Position numbers and translations under genes: made by a program. From NCBI GenBank assembly GCA_017541265.1, contig JAFXZK010000041.1, positions 1-39,915 on the forward strand: a DNA stretch of 39,915 nucleotides, given 5' to 3'. The notes under the pieces were generated by a model. That model did no database searches, was not told where the DNA came from, and saw only the letters and a program-made list of their open reading frames with translations. Source of the stretch: Bacteroidaceae bacterium (lineage in GTDB: Bacteria; Bacteroidota; Bacteroidia; Bacteroidales; Bacteroidaceae). How positions within the stretch are numbered: the stretch's first letter is position 1; every line of letters starts with the position of its first letter. Below are positions 6,911-27,637 of the stretch, piece after piece.

Positions 6911-6985
6911 TACAATTTAATTGTTTTTGTTCCTGCGTCAAGGGCAGATTGCCCTTGACTAAGCCGCCACTACATTGTAAATTCA
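6911..6985. promoter_or_regulatory. Divergent promoter pair sharing a perfect 10-bp inverted repeat
   Basis: The inverted repeat GTCAAGGGCA-GAT-TGCCCTTGAC at 6937-6959 lies between the two divergent tail units. Each arm doubles as a -33-like element TGCCCTTGA. Rightwards, TTGA (6955-6958) is 19 bp from TAAATTCA (6978-6985), which would start RNA about 20 nt before the ATG at 7012. Leftwards, TTGA (6941-6938) is 18 bp from TAAATTGT (6919-6912), just upstream of the start at 6881. The -7 boxes fit the Bacteroidetes TAnnTTTG pattern partly. The same -33 motif occurs at three other unit starts in the window. The dyad could also be a single regulator site controlling both directions. Confidence 0.65.
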
Positions 6986-7011
6986 AGATGACGTAATACC
7001 AATACGACGCG

Positions 7012-7497
7012 ATGACAATAAATAACTTCTTTCGCCACAAGGCAAAGCCGACTCCCCTACCCCTTCGCATAGAAGGCGTAGGAACTGCGCCCATTACACC
7101 TTCACCAGACGATGCAGAGTTTGCTGCAAAAGCTCTGTTGGATGCTGATGCTGGCCGCAATAAGGACACGTTGATGTTACGTCACAACGAAAAGACAACA
7201 CCAGAGAAGGGCAGTCCGGCATACTATGCCATACTGTCTTCTCGTATCCGCGAAACACGCGCCACCGAAGCACGCCTCGCAACACGCTACGTCGCGTATG
7301 CAGAGCAACAGTTGGCTCTCAACCACCCCGCGAGCGTCGTCGCTGTCGGTGGCGCACTCGCGGAGATAGAGAAAGGCCTTTATGACCGCATCGACATTAT
7401 CGAGCGTGAGGGAGGCGAACTTAAACGCCGTTGGCAGCATTGCCTCGCAACGGTCACGGTGCGGATGATGCAGAAAGGACTTTATAGCACTACTTGA
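7012..7497 (+). CDS. Small phage structural-region protein, 161 aa
   Basis: First gene of the rightward unit, directly after the divergent promoter region and 4 bp before the next gene. It begins MTINNFFRHKAKPTP. The second half is alpha-helical and Arg/Ala-rich (RETRATEARLATRYVAYAEQQL; AEIEKGLYDRIDIIEREGGELKRRW). No family is recognised. Its place two genes ahead of the tape measure is where tail assembly chaperones, tail completion or head-tail joining proteins usually lie, so a virion or assembly role is inferred only from context. Confidence 0.7.
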   Translation: MTINNFFRHKAKPTPLPLRIEGVGTAPITPSPDDAEFAAKALLDADAGRNKDTLMLRHNEKTTPEKGSPAYYAILSSRIRETRATEARLATRYVAYAEQQLALNHPASVVAVGGALAEIEKGLYDRIDIIEREGGELKRRWQHCLATVTVRMMQKGLYSTT

Positions 7498-7501
7498 AAA
7501 T

Positions 7502-8032
7502 ATGGCAGAAGAACCGCTTTGGAGACAGAGAGACCCGTTTGGCGATAAGATATGGTCCACGTCATTTGACTGGAGGGACGAACGTGTCATGCAATACATC
7601 CGTGCCTTCATTCGACACGGCGAGGTTGACTCAAAGAAGAATGTCAAGCGTCTTGATGCCATCAAAACAGGAAAGTTGGTTCGTAGTATCGGATGGAAAG
7701 CATGGTCAGACAGCGGTGGTAATGCTGAGGTATTTCAGGAAACTTACCTCAAATACGGTCAGTTTGTGGAATTGGCCGTTGGCTGGAAGAACAAATACAA
7801 ACCTATCGACCCGATTATGACACGTCAGTGGCGTCCTATTCCTGTAGCCGGTCGTAAGCGTAAGGCAAAGCCACACTCTACTGCAGAAATGCGTAAGCAA
7901 GCCAAAAAGTTTGAGCGGATATTGCTTGACCACTTCTCGTTTGTAGGGCTTGGCTTCTTGGTTTATGCCGCAGGAGCGAACCGAGCGAATTATGAAGAGC
8001 TTAACCGCCTGATGATGTCAAAAAGAAAGTAA
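7502..8032 (+). CDS. Putative head-tail joining / tail completion protein, 176 aa
   Basis: Starts 4 bp after the preceding stop and ends 28 bp before the tape measure gene. It contains the segment TGKLVRSIGWKAW followed by YLKYGQFVELAVGW, which recalls the pattern (TG.L..SI.W...Y..FVE.G) of HK97 gp10-like tail completion proteins, then a basic stretch RKRKAKPHS and a helical C-terminus. The resemblance is loose and rests on memory. The position immediately before the tape measure supports a structural or assembly role. A shorter overlapping frame at 7494-7820 is considered a shadow. Confidence 0.65.
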   Translation: MAEEPLWRQRDPFGDKIWSTSFDWRDERVMQYIRAFIRHGEVDSKKNVKRLDAIKTGKLVRSIGWKAWSDSGGNAEVFQETYLKYGQFVELAVGWKNKYKPIDPIMTRQWRPIPVAGRKRKAKPHSTAEMRKQAKKFERILLDHFSFVGLGFLVYAAGANRANYEELNRLMMSKRK

Positions 8033-8060
8033 ATTGTAAAACCTCAATAGTAATACGACT

Positions 8061-11000
8061 ATGAGCAACAAAATTGCATTAGCAACCATTCAGTTTAAGG
8101 CAGATGCCACTGGCGCAAACGCCGCCCTGGAGTCTATGCGTGAAAGCGCAAAAAAGGCAGAAGAAAAGGTTGAAGAACTGCAGAGAGCATTCGATAATGG
8201 CATCAAAACCATGAAAGATGCCAATGGCGTTGAGTTTGATGTTGCCAAGAGACTGAAAGAGGCAAACGCAGAAGCAAGAAGTTTCAGAGACGGTATCAGT
8301 CAGTTGATAAAAGGTGCTACGGCGTTAGAGGCTGTGGTAAAGAACATACGTCTGGGTGAAATCGAGAAGAACACAAGGGGCGAACTGATAGGTGCAAGGA
8401 ATGCGCTTAACCTCCGCAGACGCAACCTCAAAGAGGAAATGCCAGACTACGCCGAGAGGAAGGCCGATTTTGATAGTGCTGAGAACGAAATCAACAAGCA
8501 GCTAAACCGCATCGACCATGACACGGACAGGCTGTTGCAAACCCTCCGTGATGGCGGTTCCGTTGCCAAAGAGGTTATCGAAAAGGAGATTAAGGGTCTT
8601 GATGATATGCTAAGGCTTATTCCCGAGACTACAGAGGAATGGAAGAAGTATGCAGCTCAGCTGAAGGAGATTCAGGGTTATGTTGGTAACATGCGCAAAG
8701 AAGAACTCAAGCAGGCGACAAGCATTCTTGGCGAAAAGGACCTTGGGCAATACAATGAGACACAAATCAGAAAGGCAATCGATGCTGGCAAGGAACTGAT
8801 AAAAACCTACGAAACGGCAAGTCCAGAAGCAAAGAAGCTGGCCGCAGAAATTGTCCGTGCCGAGGAGCATGTGGAGCAATATGGCGTAAATGCGGAACGC
8901 TCTGCACGTAAAGAAGCAAAGGCTGTTGAAGAAGCGGCAAGGAAGCGGAAGGAGTCTGACGACATGATGCAACAGCAGCTGCAAAAGGGGGCCAGTCTCA
9001 CGGAAAGTGCATTAAAGCAGCAGGAAGCATATTGGCGTAAATTGATTGATGACCCGAAGACCGCAGCATCCAGTTTACAACAATACCAAGCCAACCTTGC
9101 TCAGGTTAAAACGCTGCAAGAACAGATGGCATCCGGTTCTATTGCGACAAAAGGGCAGGAGGCCTTGGCATTCTTCAGGGGAGACACCAGCAATGCAAGT
9201 ACCACCCAAATTCAAGAGCAGGCCAAGGCCCTGAAATTATATCGTGACTCTCTGCCAAGAAAAACAGAAGCCACCGTAATCAATGAGATAAACGGCTATC
9301 TTGAAAAGGCAGGTGCTATTTCCGAAAAAGCGGCTGCAAAAACAATGTCCTTTAAGCAGGCAATGCAAATAGGCATTTCCGCAGGGAGTGGGAACTTCAA
9401 GGGCACAACCGAGCAACTGAACCTCGCCAAAAAGACGCTGGAAGAAATGTCGCAGGGTGCCGTAAAAGGTGGCCTCGCATGGAGGAGGATGCAGGAACAG
9501 CTCAGCAATGTCAATCTTGAATTGGCTCGGACAGGTCATATCTCTGGGGAAGTAAAGGGCATCCTTGACAAGCCCAAAGGTCATTCGTTTAATGAGCTGA
9601 AGCAAGCCGTTGAGCAAGGACGTATTGCTCTGAATAACATGCGCCGTGACACCGCCGAGCAGCGCAAAGAATATGATAAATTAGCTGCAAGCATCAAGTC
9701 TGCTGACAAGGAAATGAAGAACCTCGGCGAATCGAGCAGAGGAACAGCGACTTCCTTCGAGAAGGCATGGAGCCGACTGAAGACATATATTGGTCTTTAT
9801 GTCAGTGCGGCAGTTGCCATGCAGAAGGTAATTGGCACGATGGGCGATTTGCTCACCCTATCTGACAAAATGGGTGAGGTTCGTAAGACAACGGGATTTA
9901 CGGCAGACGAAGTAGGCCGCCTTTCAGATTCTCTTGCGAAGATGGACACCAGAACGAGCCTTAATAGCCTCCTCGAATTGAGTGTAACAGCCGGACAATT
10001 AGGCTTGAAGACAGAACAAGATGTCAGAGGTTTTACAGAGGCTGCAAACATGCTGATGGTTGCGCTGCCTGAAATGGGTAAGGAAGGTGCAACCGCAATG
10101 CTTAAAGTCGCATTGGCAACCGGCGAAATCAACAAGATTAAAGAGCAGATGCAACAAGGGCTGATTGAAGGCACAGATGCCGTGTCGGTCGCTATGACAA
10201 AAATTGGTTCTACCATCGATGCTCTTCGTGCCAATAGTGCCGCTGCTGCACCTGCCATCACTGACTTCGTGAAGCGTGTCGGTGCCGTCGGTGCTCAGTC
10301 GGGTATCACTATAGACCAGGTCGCTGCACTTGGTTCAACAGTAGATGCTCTCGGCTTACGAGTTGAGATGTCCGCCACTGCCATTTCGCGTATGATTCCA
10401 GCAATTAAGAATAACGCCTTTGCCGTAGGAGAGGCGATAGGACTTACTGCCGAGCAGATAGAAGAGATGTATGAGCGCGAGGGCGGTGCTATGGAAGTGT
10501 TCTTGATGGTTCTTGAGAAAATGCGCGGGAAGGATGCAGACAGCATTGAGCAAATGCTTGGCAAGGGCGGCATGGCTAACATGATGAAGGAATTAAACCA
10601 ACAGGGTGCTCGTGCTGGAATTGTGTTCGCCGGACTGTCACAAAACATTGACGAGTTGCGCAGGCAGTTGGTTATTGCCGAAGATGCCTACGAAGAGAAT
10701 GTCGCTATAATGGACGAGTATAACAAGATGAATGAAACGGCTGCAGCGAAGTGGGCACGCTTGAAAAACGAAATCGAAGAAATGTTCGTTAGCAGCAAGG
10801 GCCAAAGCATCCTCGGCGGAATAATAGACAAGCTAAGAGCCGTCGTAAATTGGATTGCAGAAGACGGCATTCTTGTTAAGGCACTGAAGGGAATTATGGT
10901 CTATTGGGCATTCATAAAGCTTGACCTTGCAAACGGTTTTTTAGTAATCGCAAGGGGGTTTAAGAACATGGGTGTTGCACTTCTTGGAGGTCTCAATCAG

Positions 11001-14000
11001 ATTGGCGTAGCCTTGTTTGGTATGACAAAAATGTCCAAGGGGCTGACAAAGGCATGGAAAGAAATGGACGCCACGATGAAAGCGAACATCTTTATTGCTC
11101 TCGGGGCTGCCATCTATTATGCAATTAATGCCTGGAAGGATTTCACACAACGTGTTGACAATGTAACAGAAGCCCTGCAGGATGCAGAAGCGAGTTTCTC
11201 TGCTACAGAACGCTCGGTCGGCAATCTGTTCTTCCGTTTGCATGAGACAACCATCAAGCAGCAGGATGCGGCAGACAGTGCCACAAAGTTGAAGAAGGAA
11301 GAAGAGAAACTCGCGTCTGAGGTTGAATACCTCAATCAGCATCTGGACGAAGGCGCAAATGTAAGCGAAAAGTTGAAGAAAAAGCAGGAGGAACTGGAAA
11401 CAGCCCACAAGAAAGTTGCTACTGCAGAGGGCGAAGCAGCCCATCAGACGGAGCGTCGCATGGGTATCATTGCCGAAATCAACAGTAAGTACAGCGAATA
11501 TCTTGGTTATATGCTTAGCGAGGCTTCTACAGCAGAAACCGTTGCGACATCTCATGACTTGATTGTTGCATCCTTGAAAGAAGAAATGTATTGGCGTGAG
11601 CAAAACAACGCCTTCGAGACCGTCAGGAAGCAACACGGAGATGCCCTGAAATCTGCACAAGGAAAAGCACTTGCAGAGATAAACGGATTATCGACGTATG
11701 ACCAGCAAAGCTTTATGTCAGACTGGCAGCGAGTTCTATCAGGTGTGAAGTTTGATGCAGAAAAAGGTGGCTTTTTGCTGGACAACAAGATTTATGCGAG
11801 AATAGAAGATGTCTTAAATGCACTTGAAAAGACTTTTATTGGAGAAGTGTCTGGTCGCTTCTCTGGAATGGGAAGCGGAGAAGATGTTTTGGGCAAGGCT
11901 CATGACTGGTGGGGAAGTGGACCTGAAGGTTTGCTGCTTTTGGGGAACTCTTTCGCAGATGCGGGATTCAAACGCTGGACTGAGGAGAGTCTGAAAGTTT
12001 TGCAGGAGGCATCAATGCTTCAAAGCATATCTGGGAGTGCCGCACAAGCCGAACACCAAAATACTATTGAACAAGCAAGGGCAAACACCAATGCGCTTAT
12101 ACAACAAGCCCAAACACGTGGCGATGATGTCAGCAACAAGAAGCTTGCAGAAGCCATCGTTGGAATCTCAAAAAACCTCAGCAAATACGGAGAGTTAAGT
12201 GGCGAGTATTCTCAATTCGCCAAAGACACAACAATGAAAGGTATTGCAAACGTCCTTTTGAAAGACCTTCCAGAAGCAACTCGCAAGGCTGTTGAAGAAG
12301 AGATGGAACGTGTTGCTGCGAATGGTACGAACCCCATCAAACCCACAAAGCCAAAGAATCCATACGGAAGCGGCACAAAAGAACCGACAGATTATGCCGC
12401 AATGGATGCAAACTTGCTTGTGTCCCGAAGGGAGCAAATGAGGAACTATGTAAGAGCCATCCAATCGGATACTGATGTTCCTGCCGTTCTCTCGAAAGAC
12501 CCTGCCCTCAAGAAAGCCATCGAAAAAGGCATGTCGTCCGATATGCGCACGGTCATTGAGTGGTACAACACAGAACGTCTGAAGATTCAAGACGAACTCC
12601 ATGCGCGCCACCTCACCAATACTGGTGATTGGATGGACCCAAAGAAGCAAAAAGAGAGAAAGAAGCAATTCCAGAGTGACATGAAAGCCTACCTGGAAGA
12701 GCTGGATGCGTACTATACGGAGCGTAAGGCCCGCATACAGGAAGCTGGTAACGAAGAAGGCATCACCGATGCGGAGGTGCGCAATAGGACGCTTGCCAAC
12801 GAAATGGAATGGCGGCAGCGCAGGGCTGAACTACAGAAGTTGTATGCTGACAAGACGGCAGAGGTGACAGAAGAGGAGCAGCGGGCTATCTTTGAAATCA
12901 TTGCCGAGCGTACCGGTGACGAAGCCACGCTCATAGAAAAGATGATTGAGAAAACTGTTGACTTCTCACACAAGGTTCGCAATAAGAACGAACAGGGCGC
13001 CAAGGAGTATCGAAAGTGGATGGCTGACCTGGGACTTGGATGGGAGCGTGACCTGATGAAAGTCCAGACTGCTGTGGCTCAGCAGATGAAAGCCATACAA
13101 GATATTATCGACAAGGAACGTCCCTTCAATGGAATCACCAAGAACCTGCGTGAGAATCTGGTGACGATGGGCATACTGACAGCTGACATGAATGCAGAAC
13201 GCAACCGCCTGATGAAAGACGGTGCAGACATGACAGATTTCAACGCACGGCAGGCAGCCGAGGAGGTGAAACGAACAGCATTCGTGCTTAGCGAGGCTGA
13301 GAATGCCTATTCTACAACCATCGAAGAAGTTATGAGCCGAATGGCAGACAAGGGAATGACGGCATGGGCTGACGAGCTAAGACAGAACCCGAAGATGCAG
13401 GAAGGCTTGATGGCACAGTTGCGCTCCACATTTGACAGCATCCAGGAAGCTATCAAAAAAGAGGCTTCACTTTTGAAGAAGGAGGCTGAAATTCTCTGGA
13501 ACAATATCCTCATGCCAGATGGTGAGACCACATTGAAACAGGCAGTCGATAAGACCATTGCACAGTTGGGCTTGGATGAGGGACGTGTGAAGCGTGCCAA
13601 CTCGCTGATAGGTGCGGGTCAGGCATCGGAGCGTGTGGCCGACAATCTTGCCATCAAGCAGATGCAGATTCAACTCACCATGCAAGAACACTATTACAAT
13701 CTGATGCGCAAGCGCGGGCAGGCGGCCATTGATATGCTGAACGAACAGGCTAAGAAGGCTCGTGAGTTAGGCGACCTCGCCAAGGCAGAACGCTTAGAGC
13801 AGGATGCTAAGCACGCTACGATGAGTCTGAACTTGGCAACGGCAAAGGAAGAAACCGAATTGGCAAAGCAGCGCGAGGAGATTATCGCTCGCACCGAGGA
13901 AAGCCAGAACAGGCTTTATACGGAATTAAGGAGTTGGGCTGATTTGCTGACAAGCAGTTTGCAATCTCTCTTTGAGGCAAGCAATGCTGGCAATGCTGAG

Positions 14001-15664: not shown

Positions 15665-16564
15665 ATGATACCGATTGATTTAGTAATCCCAATGGTCTTC
15701 CCACAAGACCCGCAGTGGCAGGCAAGATATGCCGCTGCAAGCGGCAAGAGTTCTTCCGCAAACAATCATGTCAGGTTCCGTTCATGGGGAACGGAGGAGT
15801 TGTTGGTGCGGTGCTGCCTGAAGTACATGCCGTGGTTAAGGACTATCCATATCCTTCTTGCGTCCGAAAGTCAGGTGCAGGACTGGATGAAGCCCATGAG
15901 CAATAGGAGGAATACTCCGAAGATAAACCTTGTTTATCACAGGGACTTCATTCCCGCACAGCATCTGCCATGCTTCAATGTCAACACGATTGAAATGTTC
16001 CTGCATAAGATTCCTTTCGTTGCTGAGCACTTCATTTACAGCAATGATGATTTCTTCCCGCTCAGTCCTTTGGCTGAGAGTGATTTCTTCCGAGACGGAC
16101 TACCCTGCCAGCACATGACGGAAAAGCCCTACCCTACCGACCCGAATGTGTTCCATCGTTTCGTAAAGGGCGGGCTTGATATGGTTGCAGCAGACTTCGG
16201 CAAGCAATACACGGACACCTGGATTAGAGGCAGTCATTCCATGCAGCCCATGCTTCGCAGCACTGTAGAGGAAGTCTGCACGCGACACGCAGACCGTATC
16301 AGCAAGAGCTTCTCATTCAGAAGATCCGACAGGAACTTCAACCAGTACATCTTCCCTTACTATCAGCACCTGAGCGGGAAGTACGTTGACTATGAGCCGC
16401 GACATGCCTATGTCGGCCCCAAGGCTACGACAGCTCAGGTAGAAGCATATCTGCGTAAGCCTAACCTTGGCATCGTCTGTCTGAACGACAATGAGAGTAT
16501 CGCCGATTGGGAGCAGCGTGCGGCAGTTGTCCGCAGGGAGCTTGCTGCAATTCTGGAGAGGTGA
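15665..16564 (+). CDS. Stealth-family sugar phosphotransferase, 299 aa
   Basis: Stealth proteins transfer hexose-1-phosphate groups onto sugars, mainly in capsule and surface glycan synthesis. The conserved regions can be read in order: CR1-like IDLVIPMVFPQDPQWQ (residues 3-18); CR2-like RSWGTEELLVRCCLKYMPWLRTIHIL, then LVYHRDFIP, CFNVNTIEMFLHKIP and the hallmark HFIYSNDDFFP; later regions include FRRSDRNFNQYIFPYY and a C-terminal NDNESI. Length and order fit a complete enzyme. It follows the tape measure by 38 bp and is followed by two more glycosyltransferases in the same direction, so it is expected to be made late with the virion proteins. Either virion proteins or the host surface could be the acceptor. 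Confidence 0.85.
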   Translation: MIPIDLVIPMVFPQDPQWQARYAAASGKSSSANNHVRFRSWGTEELLVRCCLKYMPWLRTIHILLASESQVQDWMKPMSNRRNTPKINLVYHRDFIPAQHLPCFNVNTIEMFLHKIPFVAEHFIYSNDDFFPLSPLAESDFFRDGLPCQHMTEKPYPTDPNVFHRFVKGGLDMVAADFGKQYTDTWIRGSHSMQPMLRSTVEEVCTRHADRISKSFSFRRSDRNFNQYIFPYYQHLSGKYVDYEPRHAYVGPKATTAQVEAYLRKPNLGIVCLNDNESIADWEQRAAVVRRELAAILER

Positions 16565-16664
16565 GGAGAACAGGAACATTTCGTCTTGCCAATCACCTAT
16601 AACAACAAAAATGTTAAGCCATACACCGAATTTGTGTTAGAATGTTCACAAAATCCGCACGACT

Positions 16665-18926
16665 ATGATAAATGTTCTTATTGTCCACTACAACACTCCA
16701 GAACTGACCGCCGCTGCCATCAGTTCTTTATGGAAACACACACCGAATGCGTATGTGACGGTGTTCGACAATAGCGATGAAAGGCCGTTCTCTCCTAATG
16801 GGCTTGATATGCTTAATGTGGTAAATAGAAAAAACGAGCTGCTAACCGTCGTTGACAACACGCACGGACAGATTGTCGATTGGAACCAATGGCTCTCGCT
16901 GTTTCCAAATAAGATGCCTTGTCAAGAGAATAACTATGGTAGTGCAAAGCATTGTTATTCCGTAGAGGTAATGATGAACATGTTCCCTGACGGTTTTGTT
17001 CTCATGGACAGCGATGTTCTTATCAAGCGTGACATAAGAGACATCATCGACCCGTCCGTAGCATGGTGCGGTGGTGTGCATATCAACACGAAGAGATTCG
17101 GCGTTTCGATTAAGCGCATCATTCCCTTTCTATGCTGGATTAACACCCCACTTCTTCGGCAGCATAACATCCGATACTTCAATCCTGATAAGATGTGGAA
17201 GCTACACACGGCAAGCCCCAATTGTTGGTATGACACTGGAGCGTGGTTGCTCGAAGCCTGCAACAATGCCGGTATTGCAGGAAAGAAGATAAGAATAGGA
17301 GATTATGCCGAGCACTATGGCGGTGGCTCATGGAGGCAGCATACGCCCGAATCGTGGCTTGACAAGTTCCGTTCTCTGTGGGAACCCGTGAAGCCGACGC
17401 GCAAATCCGATGGGACGGAGGTCAAATATACCGTGCTTTCTTATATCTTCGGCGACTACGAGCAAGTGCATGAGGTTGAAGAGAAAGACCCAGAGGCAGA
17501 CTATATCCTCGTGACGGACAATCCTACGCTTCGCAGCGACACTTGGCGCATCGTCCTCGATGAGATGCCAGGACTCGATGCGATTGAGAAAATGTATGAG
17601 GTCCGTTATCATCCCTTCCGTTATGCAGGGACGGAGTTCGTTGTGAGGCTTGACGGTGCTATCGGAATCAACAAGCCGCTCCTGCCTATTATAAAGAAAA
17701 TGGAGAGAGGCGGCTATGACCGACTGCTGATGATACACCCTCGGCGAAACACATTACCTAATGAATATGGCGTATGGGTACGCAGACGCAACTACCCCAA
17801 GGCACATGCCGACCATATCCTCTCCAAGATGCAGCAGGCAGGTTACGATTTGCATTATTGCGGTCTGTTCCAGTCATGCTTCGAAGTTGTTCGCAACAAT
17901 GAGGTAAACAATGAATTAAACAGCATGACGTTCCGGCTGCTTCGGGACTTCACCCCAGACAGACACATTGACCGCATCGACCAGACGCTCCTATCGTATG
18001 TCGTCAACCATCACTTTGCTGAGCGAATAAAGGTGTTGCCTGTATCGGAAAGCATCGTTACAGACGGATACCTGATGACATGGTACAAGCACAACTCCTT
18101 CTCCCTTAATTACTCGCGTCAGACAATCGCTCCGATGATGTTCGACAAGCCGTGCATTACATGGGCGCACGATGTCCCTTGCTACACCGTGCTGACCTAC
18201 ATCTTCGGCGACTATGAACAGGTGCATGAGATAGAAGAAAAAGACCCGAATGCAGACTACGTTCTCGTTACCGACAATCCTTCGCTGCATAGCGACACTT
18301 GGCGTATCGTCCTCGATGAGCTGCCAGAACTCAGTGTGATGGAGAAGTGTTATGATGTACGCTATCATCCCTTCCGTTATGCAGAGACGGAGCTGTGCGT
18401 CAGGCTCGACAGTTCAATAGGCATCAATGGTTCTTTGCGGCCTTTCATAGAGAAGATGCAGGACGGACAGTATGACCGCTGCCTTATGGTTCATCCGAGC
18501 CACAGGACCATGCAGGAAGAGTACGATGCTTGGGTCGGATACCGTCGCTATTCGCAGGAGTATGCAGACCACGCACTTGCGACGCTGCAACGCATGGGCT
18601 ATGACATGCAGTATCAGGGCTTATTCCAAGCGTGCTTCGAGGTCGTGCGCAACAATAAGATAAACAACGAGATTAACGAGCAGACCTTCCAACTGCTTCA
18701 CGGCTTTGCTCCTGACGGTGAAATTGAGCGCATCGACCAGACGCTCCTATCTTTTGTCATCAACCAGCACTTTGCGGAACGCCTGAAGGTGCTGCCTGTT
18801 CCTGAAAGAGTCGTCGGCTCGGACTTGATGACATGGTACTGGCATAATTCAGACCATGCAAAACGTCTGAGAAAACCAATCGCACCTATTATGTTCAACA
18901 AACCTTGTGAGACATGGATGCCATAG
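16665..18926 (+). CDS. Multidomain glycosyltransferase: GT2-like N-terminus plus two DUF616-like repeats, 753 aa
   Basis: Residues 1-250 look like a GT-A fold glycosyltransferase: INVLIVHYNTPELTAAAISS at the start, VFDNS, and the DxD-type metal/nucleotide-sugar motif in VLMDSDVLI. From residue 255 two tandem modules of 252 residues follow, each opening with YTVL(S/T)YIFGDYEQVHE and carrying ADY(I/V)LVTDNP, VRLD, MIHP or MVHP, GLFQ(S/A)CFEVVRNN and RIDQTLLS. This order resembles the DUF616/TOD1-type glycosyltransferase family. The duplication is also clear in the DNA. A 100-bp gap precedes it, and its last 13 bp overlap the next gene. It probably adds one or more sugars in the pathway served by its two neighbours; donor and acceptor are unknown. 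Confidence 0.8.
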   Translation: MINVLIVHYNTPELTAAAISSLWKHTPNAYVTVFDNSDERPFSPNGLDMLNVVNRKNELLTVVDNTHGQIVDWNQWLSLFPNKMPCQENNYGSAKHCYSVEVMMNMFPDGFVLMDSDVLIKRDIRDIIDPSVAWCGGVHINTKRFGVSIKRIIPFLCWINTPLLRQHNIRYFNPDKMWKLHTASPNCWYDTGAWLLEACNNAGIAGKKIRIGDYAEHYGGGSWRQHTPESWLDKFRSLWEPVKPTRKSDGTEVKYTVLSYIFGDYEQVHEVEEKDPEADYILVTDNPTLRSDTWRIVLDEMPGLDAIEKMYEVRYHPFRYAGTEFVVRLDGAIGINKPLLPIIKKMERGGYDRLLMIHPRRNTLPNEYGVWVRRRNYPKAHADHILSKMQQAGYDLHYCGLFQSCFEVVRNNEVNNELNSMTFRLLRDFTPDRHIDRIDQTLLSYVVNHHFAERIKVLPVSESIVTDGYLMTWYKHNSFSLNYSRQTIAPMMFDKPCITWAHDVPCYTVLTYIFGDYEQVHEIEEKDPNADYVLVTDNPSLHSDTWRIVLDELPELSVMEKCYDVRYHPFRYAETELCVRLDSSIGINGSLRPFIEKMQDGQYDRCLMVHPSHRTMQEEYDAWVGYRRYSQEYADHALATLQRMGYDMQYQGLFQACFEVVRNNKINNEINEQTFQLLHGFAPDGEIERIDQTLLSFVINQHFAERLKVLPVPERVVGSDLMTWYWHNSDHAKRLRKPIAPIMFNKPCETWMP
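17427..18926 (+). repeat. Intragenic tandem duplication, unit 756 bp
   Basis: Two consecutive copies of a 252-codon module lie within the glycosyltransferase gene: copy 1 at 17427-18182 and copy 2 at 18183-18926 (slightly shorter at its end). Protein identity is high at motifs such as FGDYEQVHE, DTWRIVLDE, YHPFRYA and RIDQTLLS. Stretches of identical DNA remain, for example CGCATCGACCAGACGCTCCT in both, so the duplication is fairly recent or is kept similar by recombination. Confidence 0.85.
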
Positions 18927-19693
18927 AACAGAATTTACGCATATATATATGCACACACATAGACTTCAAGCCGTTAGTGAAGAATCCCGTCTATGAGGTT
19001 GTGGACGCTCGGCAGTACAATGGTGACATGTGCGCGAACGGACTGCACGGCTCATTCTATTCGGAGTTGCTAATGTACAAGTATGTGTCGGAGCGGAAGG
19101 ACTTGCCTGAATATGTCGGTTTCTGCGGTTACAGGAAGTATTTCTCGTTTCGGGATGATGTGCCGGATATGGATGCGATTTTCAGGGAACATGATGCCAT
19201 CGCCACCACACCCATGCGCATAGAACCCGATGTGAGAGGCCATTATCTCCATTATCATAATGAACACGATCTTGACATCGTGACAGACATTATACGCAAC
19301 GACTACCCTACCCTATTCCCGACCTTCATCCAGTCCCTGACACGCAAGGAGTTCTATGCCTGCAATATGTTCATCGTGCGGCGAGACGATTTCCTTTGGC
19401 TCATCAATACCGTATTCGGGATTCTTGACAAGTATCTGGAGGCGGTCACAGCAGGCATAGAGACAGAAGGAGACCCTATCCTCGCACGCATCGCAGCACA
19501 TAAGCAGGATTATCACATCGGCATGGAGCCTTCGCTTACGATGGAGTATGAGTACCGCATTGGCGGCTATCTTGGCGAGCGCATCGTGAATGCCCTGCTG
19601 CTCCATCGCTTCAGGAACATCAAGCACTATAATATGATAGTCACGCGGAATGCCGTGTCTCCTCGTCTGCCCTTGACGAAAGCCTCTTTATAA
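18914..19693 (+). CDS. DUF4422-family glycosyltransferase, 259 aa
   Basis: Overlaps the preceding gene by 13 bp, so the two are probably translated together. It opens with LRIYICTHIDFKP and shows the DUF4422 pattern: HGSFYSELLMYKYV, then LPEYVGFCGYRKYF, then FYACNMFIVRRDDF, and a C-terminal R.GGYLGER segment. DUF4422 proteins are putative glycosyltransferases of surface polysaccharide clusters. It is the third gene of the cassette. The last codons contain the -33-like motif of a promoter for the next gene. No catalytic mechanism can be assigned from sequence alone. Confidence 0.85.
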   Translation: MDAIEQNLRIYICTHIDFKPLVKNPVYEVVDARQYNGDMCANGLHGSFYSELLMYKYVSERKDLPEYVGFCGYRKYFSFRDDVPDMDAIFREHDAIATTPMRIEPDVRGHYLHYHNEHDLDIVTDIIRNDYPTLFPTFIQSLTRKEFYACNMFIVRRDDFLWLINTVFGILDKYLEAVTAGIETEGDPILARIAAHKQDYHIGMEPSLTMEYEYRIGGYLGERIVNALLLHRFRNIKHYNMIVTRNAVSPRLPLTKASL

Positions 19694-19703
19694 TGTAACT
19701 TCG
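19668..19703 (+). promoter_or_regulatory. Late-type promoter for the DUF6712 gene
   Basis: CTGCCCTTGA at 19667-19676 is followed after 19 bp by TAACTTCG (19696-19703), which fits the TAnnTTnG -7 box. The predicted RNA start is about 20 nt before the ATG at 19729. It shares 17 identical bases (TGCCCTTGACGAAAGCC) with the promoter-like site in front of the large tail gene at 27.6 kb, although here the sequence also encodes the end of the DUF4422 protein. Confidence 0.6.
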
Positions 19704-19728: not shown

Positions 19729-20976
19729 ATGTTTATCACAACACAAAACGAGGTTGTCACCCTCATGCCAACGGCGCGTTGGGACCGACCCGAACAACTC
19801 TTCGGATACCTTGAGGAAGAAGAGCGCGTAGCATTGGAGCCGTTGCTCGGCACGGACTTGTACGAGCATCTTTGTACGGAGTACGAGCGACTCATCAAGA
19901 AATACACAGACATCACGGCCACCACCATACGCCCGACCAAAAAAGCAAAGGCTCATCCGCACCTTCCATACGCCGATGTGACGGAACGTCTAAATGCTTT
20001 GCAGGCACAGATGGCTCCGCCTTCACTCCAGCCTTCAATGTCTTCCGATTCGTCAAGTTCTTCAGACGCGGAAGAAAACGCTGTCTCCGACGAAGATATG
20101 GCCGCTATCAGGCTCATCCGTATCTGTCAGCAGATAGAGTTCTACAAGATGCTTAGTCATAAGGCTGGTTTGCTGACCGTCTCTTTCAATGAGGGAGGCG
20201 GCGCGAACATGGTATCTGCTGAAAACTATGAGCCTGCTGACGACAAGCGGATGGAGCGCATGGTAAAGGATGCCTATATGAGTGCAGGCAGAGCCATCGA
20301 CACTCTCCTGCTCTATCTCGAATCCGATGCCAAAGGCAAGAAGTTCTTCACTGAGCGTTGGAGCAAGGCGGACGCTTTCTATTTGCATAAGGACCTGCTG
20401 TTCCAGACGGCAAGGGTAATGAACGAATACATTGACATCAAAGGCGAGCGGATGGCATACGTCTCATTGGTGCGCGACATACGCTTCTGCCAGAACACCT
20501 ACTTGAAACCTCGCATCGGTGCGAAGCTGCTGAATGCTGTGGTATGCTTTGCAAACGGCAAGAGTGACACCTCCAGTTCCTCAGATTCTTCTGAAGACAC
20601 GAGTATCGGAAATGAAGCGATGCAAGAGTTGCTGTCATTGTTAAGGACAGCCCTCGCCTTCTATGTTGAAGCGCGTCGCAAGTCGTTGGAGCCTGTCAAG
20701 GATAAGCTCGCCCGTCGTGACAGCATGACGGATGCACAGCAGGCAATGGCCGCAGCGTGTGAGCATATCGAAGACAACCTCGACATGCTTGGCCAGGCAG
20801 CCGTTGACAGTCCAATATATAAGAGTGTACGCGCACGCGAAGAACAGCTTGCCAAAAACAAGGCAGATGCTGCCGCCGCTTCAGAGCGCCAGCGAATCAG
20901 AGACAGAGAGCAGAACAGCCGTAAATTGTTCACGGCCTTCCCCGCTACCCACCGTGTGCCTGAATACAAACCTTAG
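19729..20976 (+). CDS. DUF6712-like virion protein with two Ser/Asp tracts, 415 aa
   Basis: The N-terminal region (FGYLEEEERVALEPLLGTDLYEHLCTEYERL) matches my memory of the DUF6712 family, a Bacteroidetes phage protein found among head and tail genes. Two Ser/Asp/Glu-rich insertions (SSDSSSSSDAEENAVSDED at about residues 104-122 and DTSSSSDSSEDTS at about 281-293) interrupt an otherwise helical protein. The C-terminus is a charged helix rich in A, R, E and K. The gene has its own late-type promoter upstream and a strong terminator 30 bp downstream. Exact function unknown; a connector or head-tail role is plausible. Confidence 0.75.
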   Translation: MFITTQNEVVTLMPTARWDRPEQLFGYLEEEERVALEPLLGTDLYEHLCTEYERLIKKYTDITATTIRPTKKAKAHPHLPYADVTERLNALQAQMAPPSLQPSMSSDSSSSSDAEENAVSDEDMAAIRLIRICQQIEFYKMLSHKAGLLTVSFNEGGGANMVSAENYEPADDKRMERMVKDAYMSAGRAIDTLLLYLESDAKGKKFFTERWSKADAFYLHKDLLFQTARVMNEYIDIKGERMAYVSLVRDIRFCQNTYLKPRIGAKLLNAVVCFANGKSDTSSSSDSSEDTSIGNEAMQELLSLLRTALAFYVEARRKSLEPVKDKLARRDSMTDAQQAMAAACEHIEDNLDMLGQAAVDSPIYKSVRAREEQLAKNKADAAAASERQRIRDREQNSRKLFTAFPATHRVPEYKP

Positions 20977-21036: not shown

Positions 21037-21042
21037 ATGTTG

Positions 21043-21106: not shown

Positions 21107-21109
21107 TTG
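21102..21109 (+). promoter_or_regulatory. Host-type promoter -7 box of parA
   Basis: TACCTTTG is an exact match to the Bacteroidetes -7 consensus TAnnTTTG, placed 32 bp before the parA ATG. No clear TTTG -33 box is seen; that position is occupied by octad repeats, as expected for an autoregulated promoter. Confidence 0.7.
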
Positions 21110-21141
21110 CACCCAGCTACAACATTTTTATCCAAAACATT

Positions 21142-22098: not shown

Positions 22099-22118
22099 CA
22101 ATTATAAAATATAAGATT

Positions 22119-22499: not shown

Positions 22500-22503
22500 C
22501 GAG

Positions 22504-22567
22504 TAACGCAATAGTGCAGTATTGAAGTATTGCTGTATTGTAGTTTTTCAATAACACATTATTGACG
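22504..22567 (+). repeat. Octad array C downstream of the partition adaptor (8 units)
   Basis: Starting 5 bp after the adaptor stop: TAACGCAA, TAGTGCAG, TATTGAAG, TATTGCTG, TATTGTAG, TTTTTCAA, TAACACAT, TATTGACG. The 8-bp period and TANNGCA(A/G) consensus match arrays A and B. Unlike A and B it does not precede a gene, which supports a centromere rather than only an operator role. Confidence 0.7.
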
Positions 22568-22581
22568 TAGATTTATGAATT

Positions 22582-22613
22582 AGAAGCCGCCATCCTCACG
22601 GACGACGGCTTCT
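22582..22613. terminator. Hairpin between convergent units
   Basis: AGAAGCCG and CGGCTTCT form a perfect 8-bp stem between the rightward partition locus and the leftward holin gene. There is no clear T run, so it is at best a weak or bidirectional terminator. Confidence 0.45.
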
Positions 22614-22659
22614 TAGATACAACACTATTTATTAACTAAACCTTTAATAAAAAGAAATT

Positions 22660-23127
22660 TTACTTTTCTTCTTCTTTTTTGCTGTTCAGATATTCCCCAA
22701 GGAGAGGAATCTTGCGAATTATCTCGAACGAGAGGATATAGTATAGAAAATCGACTGCTCGGAAAGCGGGAGTATGCGGTTTAAGCACTTGCATGAGGTT
22801 CCGCAGGATGTTGGTACTATAGAAGTAGATGACGATGTAAGCAACGGTACTGACGCATTGGATGGCTGCGTCTGGCTGTTGCTTCATCTTGCCGATGCCG
22901 TAGATGCTTGCAACCAGGAGAAAGAACAGTGCAGCTTCCGTAAGACATCGCCAGGCTTTTTTAAGATTGAAGTCGTTGCCGTTGGCTATCCTATCCGCGA
23001 GGTAGCCGAAGAAAAAGTTAAGCACGAAGATATATATGAGCGTAAACACGTCGCCAGCAATAGGCTCCAGCCATCCAAGCACTCCCGCGAGGAATCCGGC
23101 GATTAAAGTTCTATAATTGTCTTCCAT
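22660..23127 (-). CDS. Phage holin-like membrane protein, 155 aa
   Basis: Holins form membrane lesions that release lysis enzymes at the end of infection. The protein has three to four hydrophobic segments: around residues 6-22, 27-42 (FTLIYIFVLNFFFGYLADRI), 62-78 (AALFFLLVASIYGIG) and 90-104 (VSTVAYIVIYFYS), with a charged C-terminus ending in KKEEEK. The FGYLADRIANGNDFNLKKAWRCLTEA pattern resembles the phage_holin_4 family of Gram-negative gut phages. It is a single-gene unit with its own promoter-like site about 40-70 bp upstream. No lysin is seen next to it. Confidence 0.65.
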   Translation of the reverse strand: MEDNYRTLIAGFLAGVLGWLEPIAGDVFTLIYIFVLNFFFGYLADRIANGNDFNLKKAWRCLTEAALFFLLVASIYGIGKMKQQPDAAIQCVSTVAYIVIYFYSTNILRNLMQVLKPHTPAFRAVDFLYYILSFEIIRKIPLLGEYLNSKKEEEK

Positions 23128-23161
23128 TTTATCGGTGGTTTATGTAGTTTTCTTGTTATAG

Positions 23162-23198
23162 TAAAGATACATCATTGCGAAACGAAAAGCAAGGGCAA
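23162..23198 (-). promoter_or_regulatory. Late-type promoter for the holin gene
   Basis: On the minus strand TTGCCCTTGC (23198-23189) is followed after 19 bp by TATCTTTA (23169-23162), one base off the TAnnTTTG -7 consensus. It lies 35 bp before the holin ATG. It shares TTGCCCTTG with the other late-type sites. Confidence 0.6.
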
Positions 23199-23227
23199 TA
23201 CCAACTACGGTTTTTCCATTTGACATT

Positions 23228-24307
23228 TCAACCTTCAAGGGCAAGCGTAACCGTGAACTCCACGCTCGGCATCTGTTGTTTTGTGCGGTCGTAGATGTTC
23301 GTCGTCTTCTTGGTTGGTATTACGGTAACGGGGACATATTTGCCATTGTAGAGCATCCAATGGCGGCGTGCCATAAGAAACTCCAACGTCCACCATTCTG
23401 CCCATTCGCGTGTCTGATAGCCACTCGACATGCTCCATGAACGACGGCCACCGGATGCAATAGCCATAATCGAGCGAGAAGGGTTGTATGTTGGTGATTC
23501 AATATGCGCGTATTGTTTCGCTTCTATGGCTATGTCCTGGGCTTCGAGCATCCGTGCGCTGCATGTCTCGACAGCACCGCGCCGATTGACAAACAGGAAA
23601 TCCGTATATGGCACAGAGTCGCGCATTACGATAGGAGCGTGACCGTTCCATTGCCCTTCGCCAGTATCGTCGTTCTGAGGTATTGATGTTGGTGAATAGA
23701 ATACACTCTTAGTTCCTGCGCTGTTGACATCCACCCATGATGTGATGCTATTGCTGCCGACACGTTCCGGCGAAGAGGTCGGTTTCGTGCTTGCGTCGCC
23801 GTTACGAGGACCAGAATGCTCCAGCATAGACACATCGTTTCCTGTGGCGACACTGCGTTCTATCTCTGTAAGACCACCTATGATACATGAGCCGCCTGCA
23901 AACTCGCCAGAATCGGTAACTGTAAACACGCCATCATCAGAGATGTATTCCGTGAACACCTTCAGGCTGTATGCCTTCTTTGAACGTGAATAATAAGAGT
24001 TTTCGGCCAGTAGTGCCTTACTGACCTCGTTTGAAAAGTCGTACTCGCTCCACAATGCACGAAGAGCAGATGATATGTCAAAGCTGATAGAAGTCGCGCT
24101 ACCGACCTCTCCTGAAAATTCGCCGACCACTTCACTATCGTTTCCGTATAGCACTTGCACTCGGCACACTTTGATTGGGCTTTCTTCTGGAAAGTCCAAC
24201 TCACTGACGTTTATCACTACTGGATTGTCGGCAAAATAGGTGTTGTTTTCACCAATCATGCCGCTGATTACTGCGATATTTGATTCGCTGCTGCTACTTG
24301 ATGCCAT
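23228..24307 (-). CDS. Tail-region structural protein with Ser-rich N-terminus, 359 aa
   Basis: Begins MASSSSSES, a short version of the Ser/Glu tracts in other virion proteins here. The body is beta-rich with many Ser and Asp residues (SFDISSALRALWSEYDF; RSWSMSSGYQTREWAEWWTLEFL; HWMLYNGKYVPVTVIP). It follows the 1080-residue tail gene by 24 bp in the same direction. No family is recognised. The composition and the link to a large tail gene suggest a baseplate or tail-tip component. Confidence 0.7.
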   Translation of the reverse strand: MASSSSSESNIAVISGMIGENNTYFADNPVVINVSELDFPEESPIKVCRVQVLYGNDSEVVGEFSGEVGSATSISFDISSALRALWSEYDFSNEVSKALLAENSYYSRSKKAYSLKVFTEYISDDGVFTVTDSGEFAGGSCIIGGLTEIERSVATGNDVSMLEHSGPRNGDASTKPTSSPERVGSNSITSWVDVNSAGTKSVFYSPTSIPQNDDTGEGQWNGHAPIVMRDSVPYTDFLFVNRRGAVETCSARMLEAQDIAIEAKQYAHIESPTYNPSRSIMAIASGGRRSWSMSSGYQTREWAEWWTLEFLMARRHWMLYNGKYVPVTVIPTKKTTNIYDRTKQQMPSVEFTVTLALEG

Positions 24308-24331
24308 AGTTTTATTTGTTTTTCGGTTATC

Positions 24332-27300
24332 TTATAAGTACCACACTTCCATGTTTACAAGCCCAAGTCCGCTGCTCATGTCAATGCTGTACTGCATCTT
24401 CTTGATAAAGCCTGTTATGTCGCCTATACGGACACGCTTAGTCTTGTCGATATTCAAGAACTGCGCCAGCTCCATTTTTACTTTCATCTTAGCGATACGA
24501 GCATTGCGAACCCAATAGCTGTACTCCTTATAGAATTGGTCTGCAAGGCCGCGCTGCCGAAGTGTAGGATTAGAGATTTCAAGGAATCGTTGGTTTTCTG
24601 CGCTCTCTGGTTGTGTCGGGTCGAAGTAGGGATTGGGCTTCTCAGCGCGGAGCTTGAGGGATACTCGTCCGTCGTTTTCATCCGATGAATCAACATAGCC
24701 ATAATTGACTATCGCATTCCCTCGTATATAATTATCGCAAACAGTTTTTAAGAACTCGCTTGTGACTGTTGGGTCAATAGCAATAATCATATTTGAAATA
24801 GTGCCATTCCCATTCCTGTCGCGACGAAGAATTTCATTTATATCGGAAGGACTTGTATTATTTGTTCCATGTTGCAGATAATCGAGATAACCATTTTGCC
24901 CGAGCATTGAACCATACGATTTCAGGACATGCTCATAAACACAGCACAACCATATAACATGAGTTGTCCCTCCTGTATCCGTAACACTTCCAATGGTTGC
25001 ATAATATCCTTGGTCTGTTAAAATTAGAATATCATATCCATGTGATGAATAGTAGGTATCTATTAGCGATAATGTATCAAGCCCAGTTGGTACAGGACCT
25101 TTTCTGCTTTTAAGGTCACACTGATTAGCGAATCCTGCTTCAGACAACAACTTGTCGCCATACTCCAAGCCTGTATATGAACGCATGGCACAACGTCTCC
25201 ATAGAATGCCATAATCATCACAAATATCTGGATGTGCAGATGCTGTATCACCAGGTAATGTTCCCCAATAGTCATTACCCTCTCCTTCTATATCGTCGGC
25301 ATCATAAACAGTGCGTCCTGCTTCAAGCGACCCAAAACTTCCACGAAGAACTCCAAGAGTCAACCCCCAATCAACTTTTTCTAATGGGGACAATAGCTCA
25401 TCAGAAACTTTATAATTGTCGTCAAGATACAATCGGTATCCTTCTCGTATCCATCCCGTGATTTTATATGTATAACTCCAGTACTGAGCGGGCGACACAC
25501 CAGCAACTTGACCAGATATTGTAAATGTGTCCCCGCCCATGCTATTTTTGGCGACGAAAGGAACTGATGTCGCTACTTCAAACAGGCCACTTTGATATTC
25601 TGGTCTTTTCTGTGTAAACGTACACCCCATAGAGTCTGGTTCTGCACTGCCAGCCATTTTATTGAGGATTTCACTTGGAGTAGTATCAATGGCACGATTA
25701 TAGGAGTCTGTTGTTCCCATTAGTTGTGCATACGCACCCGTTTCTTTATATGGGACTCCCATCTCCTCTGAAATAAAAATTGCATACTGCATACCAGGAA
25801 GAGAAAGGAGGTATGTTGGCGAATTAAAATTCTGAGACCTTCCAGAAGCCCCAGAGATGGCCGACATTATAGCTGGTGTAAATCCAATATGTACCTCTTT
25901 GATAGTCTCCTCCTCTCCTCCACAATCTCCATCTTCTGCATCAATAAATTCAGCGCATTCAAATTGTGACGGATACCACTCATCTGGATTTTTTGCATTT
26001 TCGTCAATTTTCACAACATAGGAATTTCCTGTGTTTTTTGCGACATAGCATGTTGGGCTTAGAGTTTTAGCCTTCTCTTTAATTGGCACATAATTATCAT
26101 AAAACGCAAATTTTGTATAGTCGTGTGCATCAGGCTCATCCTCCCATTTGTTTTTTTCTATCTTCTTGGCACTAACAAATCCTTTATAGTTGTAAGCGGT
26201 GTCTTCTTCGCTGCCACCATAAGTCAACCTGAATCCCAGGATATTATTTTCTTTTTTTGAAATTTCTGTGATTTCACAAGAAATTTCTGATACGTCATTT
26301 GACCTAAAGACTTCTCGTAAAAGAACTATTCGTACATCTGTATAATCTTTGTTGAAGAGTAATCTTGCGCAAAATCCTGACTCTATCGATTCTATCACAT
26401 CACTAATGTCTGTTTCTGGAAAATTAGCACTGGTTGCATACGCGGGTTGCCAAAGCACCGTGTCGCCACCCCATCCAACATGCACCATTTCGCAATAGCT
26501 GTAATTCAATGCTCCCCAAAATCCTTCATCAAATTGTGGTTCTAACGTTATCGACCATGCTGGATCTTCATCAGTTGGTTGTGGCACGAGAGGGCTGTTG
26601 GGGCCAAGAGGCATATAATCTCCAGTATATTTGATTGTACCTTTTGTTTTATATGAGCATTTGGTATTAACAAAGAACAAGCGCCGAAGGTCTTTTACTC
26701 CAAGCATCTGGTTTTCTTTAATGTAAATTCCAAGGTGCTTCATTAGACAGTCCAGCCAGTACAAAACAAAAAAGTTAGGTGCAGGATTTATACGACGAGG
26801 CGAACTAACGTGATAACCGCGGATTGTTTTTTCTTCTATTTCCGTCCCATTATCTTTCCATTCTTTGTCTTGATAACAAATTGTTACGTTGCAATACGGA
26901 TGGCTCTCATCGTAGGCATAATCGGTATTGATAGTGTTCTCTGGAAGAATCGTAAATTCTTCATTTGTGCCATACTTCTTCCATGTCCCATCTGGTCGCA
27001 CATATTTCGGGAACATCTGTGCTTTTATTCCATCTTTTTCTTGCAAGTCTGCCCAGACAATTCCTTCGTGATATGTCTTATCGCCAAAAAGTCCATAGGT
27101 GAAATGGCCTAACTTTATTTGAACACCATGTCTCCCAAATGTTCGTTCCCGTTCTGCCGCCATACCAATAAGTACATCCCCCATCAATGGCACTTGGTTT
27201 GCCTTAGCGCCTTCTATCATGTCATAGAAGGTTTTCTGGCCGCTCTCGAAGCTGACATTGACATCGCCATCTTCATCAACATCTACCTCGTCATCAAGAC

Positions 27301-27574
27301 GTAGGTAGCCATAATACAGAGGAAGCCCCTCTACCCACAAACGAGCACGGCGTTTGTCTACCTGCTCATGCAGACGCGAGCCGTGCATTTCGCCCGCCGA
27401 CCCGAAGATGTGCGAGTTTGCATGGATATTGAGTTTGAAGGAGTAGCTCCAGATGTCGCCAGAGTCGAATATCTCTGACGTATCTATGATGGTAATGCTG
27501 GTATCACTTGGCAGGAATGCGTATTTGCTGCCATTCCCGTCGCGGTTGAAAATCTCTAATGCGAGGTGTTCCAT
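24332..27574 (-). CDS. Large tail / baseplate protein, 1080 aa
   Basis: Begins MEHLALEIFNRDGNGSKYAF. The first 200 residues (IWSYSFKLNIHANSHIFG, RRARLWVEGLPLYYGYLRL, VNVSFESGQKTFYDMIEG) read like a tail-hub or baseplate domain, and the C-terminal 150 residues include RFLEISNPTLRQRGLADQFYKEY. The middle (about nt 24.7-27.0 kb) is clearly richer in A/T than both ends and than the neighbouring genes, as if a central, perhaps receptor-facing, part had been exchanged. It is preceded by a late-type promoter and by a 12-bp dyad that reaches into the ATG. Structural role is likely; exact position in the tail unknown. Confidence 0.7.
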   Translation of the reverse strand: MEHLALEIFNRDGNGSKYAFLPSDTSITIIDTSEIFDSGDIWSYSFKLNIHANSHIFGSAGEMHGSRLHEQVDKRRARLWVEGLPLYYGYLRLDDEVDVDEDGDVNVSFESGQKTFYDMIEGAKANQVPLMGDVLIGMAAERERTFGRHGVQIKLGHFTYGLFGDKTYHEGIVWADLQEKDGIKAQMFPKYVRPDGTWKKYGTNEEFTILPENTINTDYAYDESHPYCNVTICYQDKEWKDNGTEIEEKTIRGYHVSSPRRINPAPNFFVLYWLDCLMKHLGIYIKENQMLGVKDLRRLFFVNTKCSYKTKGTIKYTGDYMPLGPNSPLVPQPTDEDPAWSITLEPQFDEGFWGALNYSYCEMVHVGWGGDTVLWQPAYATSANFPETDISDVIESIESGFCARLLFNKDYTDVRIVLLREVFRSNDVSEISCEITEISKKENNILGFRLTYGGSEEDTAYNYKGFVSAKKIEKNKWEDEPDAHDYTKFAFYDNYVPIKEKAKTLSPTCYVAKNTGNSYVVKIDENAKNPDEWYPSQFECAEFIDAEDGDCGGEEETIKEVHIGFTPAIMSAISGASGRSQNFNSPTYLLSLPGMQYAIFISEEMGVPYKETGAYAQLMGTTDSYNRAIDTTPSEILNKMAGSAEPDSMGCTFTQKRPEYQSGLFEVATSVPFVAKNSMGGDTFTISGQVAGVSPAQYWSYTYKITGWIREGYRLYLDDNYKVSDELLSPLEKVDWGLTLGVLRGSFGSLEAGRTVYDADDIEGEGNDYWGTLPGDTASAHPDICDDYGILWRRCAMRSYTGLEYGDKLLSEAGFANQCDLKSRKGPVPTGLDTLSLIDTYYSSHGYDILILTDQGYYATIGSVTDTGGTTHVIWLCCVYEHVLKSYGSMLGQNGYLDYLQHGTNNTSPSDINEILRRDRNGNGTISNMIIAIDPTVTSEFLKTVCDNYIRGNAIVNYGYVDSSDENDGRVSLKLRAEKPNPYFDPTQPESAENQRFLEISNPTLRQRGLADQFYKEYSYWVRNARIAKMKVKMELAQFLNIDKTKRVRIGDITGFIKKMQYSIDMSSGLGLVNMEVWYL

Positions 27575-27608
27575 ATTGTGCTATGACGTATTCGTTATAG
27601 CACAATAT
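27573..27608. promoter_or_regulatory. 12-bp perfect dyad spanning -7 box and start codon
   Basis: ATATTGTGCTAT and ATAGCACAATAT are separated by 12 bp. One arm overlaps the predicted -7 box and the other abuts and overlaps the ATG of the 1080-residue tail gene. If RNA starts where predicted (about 27596), the first arm is not transcribed, so the dyad is better read as an operator with two half-sites than as an RNA hairpin. Confidence 0.6.
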
Positions 27609-27637
27609 AATTTTTAGTCGGCTTTCGTCAAGGGCAA
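27602..27637 (-). promoter_or_regulatory. Late-type promoter for the large tail gene
   Basis: Minus-strand TTGCCCTTGA (27637-27628) is followed after 18 bp by TATATTGT (27609-27602). It belongs to the same family as the sites near 6.94, 19.67 and 23.19 kb, and lies in the 75-bp gap between two leftward genes. Confidence 0.6.

Follow-up and report, generated by a model that had tools for sequence, protein, structure and literature searches.

A probable phage-specific late promoter in a family of large uncultured Bacteroidota phages

To our knowledge, the control of late genes in Bacteroidota phages has hardly been described, and the locus presented here raises the question of how it is achieved: are the near-identical elements standing before structural and lysis genes promoters of a dedicated kind, and what would read them? 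The window, meaning the whole 39,915-nt stretch that was analyzed (Bacteroidaceae bacterium, contig JAFXZK010000041.1 of GCA_017541265.1), is contig C100 of a 3.24-Mb, 143-contig assembly (G000) and probably represents part of a large uncultured Bacteroidota phage. The element consists of the core TGCCCTTGA, whose A is sometimes replaced by C, followed by N18/19 and TAnnTT(G). Spacing is given here as the nucleotides between TTG and the TA of the TAnnTT box; it is 20, sometimes 19.

The initial annotation claimed five such promoters, and all five are present where it placed them. Two of them are divergent, the first at 6914-6946(-) (TGCCCTTGA-N18-TAAATT, 19 nt) before the large protein gene 3663-7169(-), whose true start is likely the ATG at 6882, and the second at 6950-6983(+) (TGCCCTTGA-N19-TAAATT, 20 nt) before 7012-7497(+). 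The third, at 19668-19701(+) (TGCCCTTGA-N19-TAACTT, 20 nt), precedes 19729-20976(+), which has a DUF6712 match below cut-off. The fourth, at 23164-23197(-), is a TTGC variant (TGCCCTTGC-N19-TATCTT, 20 nt) and serves the holin-like gene 22660-23127(-) (Pfam Phage_holin_4_1, 22.7 bits vs. a cut-off of 22.2), while the fifth, at 27604-27636(-) (TGCCCTTGA-N18-TATATT, 19 nt), stands before the gene of a 1080-aa protein at 24332-27574(-). The list was nevertheless incomplete, since a sixth site at 28002-28034(-) (GCCCTTGC-N19-TATATT, 20 nt), preceded by A and not T, had been missed; it is located 28 nt upstream of the start of 27650-27973(-) and overlaps the end of the upstream gene. Concerning the large target genes 3663-7169 and 24332-27574, the tail identity first assigned to them found no support in Pfam, nor in PHROGs for 24332-27574.

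All four A-type sites of C100 are matched at homologous places in C75 or C41, two contigs of the same assembly, despite the diverged surrounding DNA. Specifically, the second and third promoters have counterparts at C75 9755(+) and 21755(+), and the fifth at C41 4639(+), upstream of a 56%-identical gene. The newly found sixth promoter also has one, at C41 4221(+), in the same place before the orthologue 4265-4624; coding constraint may add to its conservation. The counterpart of the first promoter, at C75 9748(-), has TATTAT in place of the box and thus does not satisfy the strict form. Unlike the fourth promoter, the TTGC site of C41 at 9698(+) is upstream of a gene of another family.

Enrichment, form and distribution of the element

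The strict pattern GCCCTTG[AC]-N18/19-TAnnTT occurs six times in the window, never in the reversed window, and 0.03 times on average (maximum 1) in 300 dinucleotide shuffles. A loose search of the window (10-mer plus box, 3 mismatches) found 6 sites vs. 3.9 expected, which is not significant alone, and the strength of the claim therefore rests on the strict form. The bare word GCCCTTG is also found within genes and is special only when coupled to the box at 19-20 nt.

The enrichment anticipated for related phages was borne out. Thirteen records, picked solely via protein families F1 and F2 (families 13 and 12) and with no use of the motif, contain 73 GCCCTTGA+box sites spread over 12 of the 13; the reversed control gave 0, and in every record the shuffles averaged 0.0. 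Seven further IMG/VR records gave 32 matches to TGCCCTTGAC-N16-20-TAnnTT and none to the reversed pattern; this set is biased, six having been picked for several motif matches and one via the 1080-aa protein. A scan of the whole of IMG/VR returned at least 120 stretches, by our own estimate about the chance expectation for a collection of that size, and therefore only contigs with several matches were used. GCCCTTGA-type sites number 140 in 25 contigs or records; they are non-independent, as some records share stretches, and 132 are distinct. Among the 140, 51 lie entirely within a mechanically called, uncurated ORF, and these ORFs probably have over-extended starts.

When any spacing of 8-32 nt between GCCCTTG and the box was allowed, 160 sites were found at 20 nt (control 1), 11 at 19 and at most 9 at any other distance (control 0-3 each). 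With only 19 and 20 allowed, 131 of the 140 GCCCTTGA-type sites have 20 nt and nine have 19. The phage sites thereby show the spacing of Bacteroidota sigma-A promoters, in which TTG lies ~19-20 nt before TA. A start codon follows within 70 nt of the box in 116 of the 131 spacing-20 GCCCTTGA sites. The corresponding fractions are 0.11 for a scrambled heptamer, 0.11 for a reversed heptamer, 0.20 for TTGA plus box lacking the preceding C, and 0.19 for any TAnnTT; GCCCTTG alone (0.42) and TTG-N20-TAnnTTTG (0.57) are comparison sets that include real promoters.

Conservation was assessed on the 132 distinct sites. The T of TGCCC is conserved (0.93); the first T of TTGCCC, part of the motif as initially written, is not (T 0.42, C 0.41, A 0.13, G 0.05), and the base preceding TGCCCTTGA is mostly C or T. 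TTGA is followed by C (0.58) or T (0.39), with 77 exact TGCCCTTGAC+box sites, 49 with T at position 10 and five with A there. Single changes of TGCCCTTGA at positions 1-9 gave 12 sites vs. 1 in the control, a test that overlooks doubly changed sites and so underrates C at position 9; replacement of the A by C or T added 31 sites vs. 2 in the reversed control. No strongly conserved base was found upstream of the block in the 132 sites, therefore the element appears as a single asymmetric block in which a second half-site is absent, and the repeated site of a dimeric Mor-type activator was not found.

The motif is nearly absent from host chromosomes. Within the window's own genome, five phage contigs account for 13 of the 14 strict sites (none for the reversed pattern) and for 18 of the 34 occurrences of the bare decamer (reversed 5). 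The single strict site elsewhere in that genome is at G000:C107:18590-18623(+). Five MAGs of 2.1-3.5 Mb each (~14.4 Mb) contain 37 sites, 36 of them on one or two contigs each (reversed pattern 2); these phage contigs were judged from coordinates, lengths and site sequences and are hence called apparent. Across the six MAGs, two sites are off apparent phage contigs. Additionally, among 14 IMG/VR portal relatives the seven most distant (23-37% identity) have no sites, and six of the seven nearer ones have 2 to 9.

Target genes and contrast with host-type promoters

The genes most often served are family 16, with an S49 peptidase domain (15 records or contigs), and family 4, the portal (14). Families 23 (12), 5 (10), 17 (9), 26 and 14 (8 each) follow; family 14 is DUF6712-like, and 17, 23, 5 and 26 are unannotated. 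Family 11 is served in 6, plus 7 with the C/T variant, making 13 records or contigs. These eight main families make up 82 of 130 record-by-family pairs; most of the remaining 26 are rare and lack annotation. The proposed enrichment before late-type genes thus holds in that the nameable targets are portal, S49-peptidase or lysis genes, or stand in a block with the tape-measure gene. For nameable genes, the motif precedes structural or lysis genes and not early ones; many targets are unannotated, and the label "late" is itself a presumption from gene content.

Family 11 has no Pfam match, but we read it as spanin-like because it has a lipobox-like stretch and membrane stretches. It is encoded apart from the structural genes, among early genes and beside HU-like and regulatory genes, and it has the element all the same; therefore the regulon tracks function and not map position. 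As a side observation, the C/T variant is commoner before this spanin-like family (7/13) than elsewhere (24/158; Fisher p 0.003, from counts entered by hand and related, non-independent records). The TTGC/TTGT promoters of lysis genes are perhaps a weaker or later version.

Host promoters were taken from 443 kb located elsewhere in the assembly, which may include other mobile elements. Upstream of genes in this set, 90 TAnnTTTG boxes were found with TTG mostly 20 or 19 nt away. Where TTG lies at 19-21 nt, it is preceded by GCCC in 0 of 37 promoters and by T in 27 of 37. The initial view that the extended -33 motif differs from the host norm is therefore upheld, and the -7 box was found to differ too. 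The host -7 consensus is TANNTTTGY (PMC12632263). The late sites as a set do not carry the sigma-A box TAnnTTTG (24/132), and TAnnTTG is their commonest form (69/132), whereas [A/T]TTTG-N19/20-TAnnTT matches in the phages, unfiltered for genes, have TAnnTTTG in 69/128 and TAnnTTG in 10/128. In short, the phage element shares with Bacteroidota sigma-A promoters (-33 TTTG, -7 TAnnTTTG) the -33 TTG and the -7 TA and TT, 19-20 nt apart, and differs in its near-invariance, in its box, mostly TAnnTTG(C), and in TGCCC replacing the T/A-rich stretch before TTG.

The same phages also have promoters of the host type. Near starts, 116 TTG-N19/20-TAnnTTTG promoters were counted, 23 with GCCC and 93 without. 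The latter have A/T-rich upstream DNA and mainly precede F2 (17), Rep (family 10; 15), F1 (7) and family 32 (5); ParA genes account for two more, as do portal genes (G012, G019). In a number of records, promoters of the host type precede Rep, ParA, F1 and F2 genes; strict sites were not found there. The window's parA does have the host-type -7 box reported for it (TACCTTTG); a TTG 19-20 nt upstream of that box is missing.

Candidate readers and rival explanations

Enrichment, target genes and near-absence from the host support the late regulon proposed at the outset, with a phage activator or modified host polymerase as its reader. In our judgment TGCCCTTGA-N18/19-TAnnTT(G) is probably a dedicated virion and lysis promoter, used by the host polymerase together with an early phage protein at TGCCC/-33, and the phages that share it are probably one family of large phages of Bacteroidaceae/Prevotellaceae, several from rumen. 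We are confident that it is a phage-specific late promoter and have little confidence in the identity of its reader. Host RNA polymerase is suggested because the TTG at -33 and the TAnnTT at -7 keep the host spacing. A host factor for a nine-base word almost absent from the host is unlikely; the reader is therefore most likely a protein of the phage itself, produced early. Such a reader would be expressed from an ordinary host-type promoter, would bind TGCCC beside, and jointly with, the -33 TTGA, and would recruit or re-aim host RNA polymerase in the manner of phage activators that act beside the -35 region.

Phage elements beside -35 that are read with the host polymerase are already known in other phyla. 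T4 middle promoters are activated by MotA and use the host polymerase. They and the Mor-dependent Pm of Mu have in common with the present promoters a conserved phage element at or just upstream of -35 and a host-type -10/-7 box. In contrast to them, the element described here has no inverted repeat and retains the -33 TTG; Mor recognizes a pair of 5-bp inverted repeats with its center at -43.5 (PMC4390567). No homologue of Mor or MotA was found in the phage families scanned, and among the matches listed for the open-licence literature there was nothing on the motif (including the word TTGCCCTTGA) or on such promoters in Bacteroidota phages.

Thirty-nine protein families were profile-tested. 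Six of them (2, 5, 8, 11, 13, and 21) could be detected in every one of the 15 near-complete groups that bear the motif, but not in any of five distant relatives that lack it, several of these being short fragments. Three of the six (2, 5 and 8) belong to the late block, a fourth (11) is the lysis gene and a fifth (21) carries a MutS domain; what remains is F1, an orphan family of ~220 aa that we put forward, as a guess, as the best candidate reader. Seven contigs or records show a host-type promoter before F1. The protein ends in a C-terminal region with a nearly invariant RREWQRR stretch, the family is detected more weakly in G014, and searches of Pfam, PHROGs, NCBIfam and PDB sequences returned nothing significant for it. 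A possible, decidedly tentative refinement is that a specificity factor of a new class, with F1 as the candidate, recognizes, with the host polymerase, a near-invariant block of 9-10 bp lying roughly between -40 and -31 as counted from the box, and accepts a -7 box shifted from the host form; we know of no Bacteroidota phage with such sigma-appropriation. Another widespread protein, family 0 (~105 aa, 71% mean column identity), is found in all 15 groups, yet it is absent from G021 and weakly matched in G023. The HU-like family 6 was not found in the window and is likewise weakly matched in G023. Families 0 and 6 are conceivable readers all the same. Searches with F1, F2 and family 0 turned up no known activator or sigma factor at a significant level, and PDB profile searches gave nothing usable.

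The strongest rival, although an unlikely one, is that TGCCCTTGA is an asymmetric repressor operator, e.g., of F2, which would cover -33 and so keep the virion genes silent. Phage P1 has dispersed asymmetric operators, and the Rep- and ParA-like genes suggest that these phages may persist as plasmids. F2 is HTH-like and present in 14 of 14 groups, with weak matches: its N-terminus scored insignificantly against lambda-repressor-like HTH chains (E 0.64 and worse), and DUF5053 was matched at E 0.003 in three of six members. However, a pure operator needs no -33 TTG in one fixed register, and the -7 box of the late sites deviates from TTTG, the host form, as if needing help. Furthermore, members of F2 differ in their putative recognition helix while the motif is constant, for which reason F2 was also set aside as the reader.

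Distinctly improbable, and partly overlapping with our preferred promoter reading, is a very divergent phage sigma factor or phage RNA polymerase that reads a two-part promoter. In its favor, both boxes are unlike the host sigma-A boxes, and the late TAnnTTG(C) resembles the SM5 motif of Flavobacterium psychrophilum (TAnnTTGY), which has the TTG one base closer to TA in the same manner and is credited to an alternative sigma factor (PMC9723704). SM5 is a host regulon of LPS, amino-acid scavenging and gliding, and the portion of that source consulted does not mention a TGCCC element for it. Against this reading, the polymerase active-site word (N/D)xDFDGD is absent from all frames of at least 40 aa in the fetched records, and Pfam sigma region 4 exceeds its cut-off in G001 only among G001-G007, with none in G002-G007. 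Comparison of F1, F2 and family 0 by hhalign with three host sigma-like ORFs gave probabilities of at most 0.2%, the unrelated control A3 behaving alike.

That these are plain host sigma-A promoters, with TGCCC as a habit of the family or a host-activator site, is highly improbable. TTG-N20-TAnnTT does match the host spacing, but nine bases are near-invariant family-wide, none of the 37 host promoters has the GCCC, six MAGs have no more than the two sites mentioned outside apparent phage contigs, and ordinary host promoters serve the early genes of these phages. Finally, a 173-aa protein with an RNA polymerase alpha-CTD, encoded in the window at 33943-34464(-), could dock at the UP-element place as the general reader, which is the least credible proposal, given its sporadic presence across motif-bearing phages: PF03118 was found at E ≤1 in 3 of 20 IMG/VR records (G001, G008 in part and G019 below cut-off; records may be fragments), with the motif in 19 of the 20, even if G001 has an ORF that combines the domain with sigma70 region 4.

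The alpha-CTD of the 173-aa protein spans residues 102-161 (PF03118, E 4e-14); NCBIfam rpoA models match its C-terminal half only, far below their cut-offs, and a direct search for alpha-CTD relatives in viral contigs returned none. The ORF of G001 (locus L193, 66600-67385(-), 261 aa) fuses sigma70 region 4 (PF04545) and alpha-CTD (PF03118), and its N-terminal start reads as HTH-like. Both proteins show that these phages borrow parts of the polymerase, although such genes are sporadic.

As for its use, one near-invariant word flags genes of late type on contigs of uncultured phages. The word can be used for recognizing and joining contigs of the phage family, for separating early from late genes, and as a bait for the factor that re-aims an unusual (-33/-7) polymerase, and it may offer a phage-dependent promoter for Bacteroides and Prevotella genetics.

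The phage family and its gene content

C75 and C41 align to about half of C100 with a DNA identity of 66-87%, and C2 and C71 of the same assembly resemble each other. All five have proteins in common with the same large IMG/VR records and scarcely share any across the two sets, for which reason C100, C75+C41 and C2/C71 appear to come from two co-binned relatives within one large-phage family. Fetched IMG/VR members reach up to 145 kb, and records may be fragments. Relatives of the portal were found in five MAG contigs of Bacteroidaceae or Prevotellaceae, three of them from water buffalo or goat rumen. One portal relative has 27% identity with the portal of Polaribacter phage Leef_1 over 38% of its length. 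Against the phage collection, the portal query matched three phage records (two being one phage) at 27-28% identity, and against the plasmid collection it matched no plasmid record.

A Rep3-like initiator and a ParA-like protein were each present in 14 of 14 groups and a DnaA_N-domain protein in 11 of 14, and because of these families replication is perhaps plasmid-like. The family also encodes a protein with a weak match to a primase zinc finger and, in G006, a helicase; a MutS-domain protein, an amidase, a tape-measure protein and a weakly matched large terminase are among its protein families.

Some further features of the window were noted. Three glycosyltransferase-like genes at 15665-19693(+) (Stealth_CR2, PHROG glycosyltransferase, DUF4422) are located in a late unit, flanked by a 2521-aa gene of the tape-measure family and the DUF6712-like gene; a glycosyltransferase-like query had zero matches in the phage collection. 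The leftward block at 28-39.5 kb includes a YopX-domain gene at 35701-36156(-) and a PAPS-reductase-domain gene at 36309-37160(-). The region of a 660-aa gene (31825-33905) recurs at C41 1-1230 and 11891-13862, in both orientations at the ends of that contig, and in part at C2 23332-23922, near a TnpB-like gene at C2 21569-23239, and is possibly mobile or inverted. Lastly, window 1-3660 and C75 1-3725 start at the same homologous base, which may be a genome end or an assembly breakpoint.
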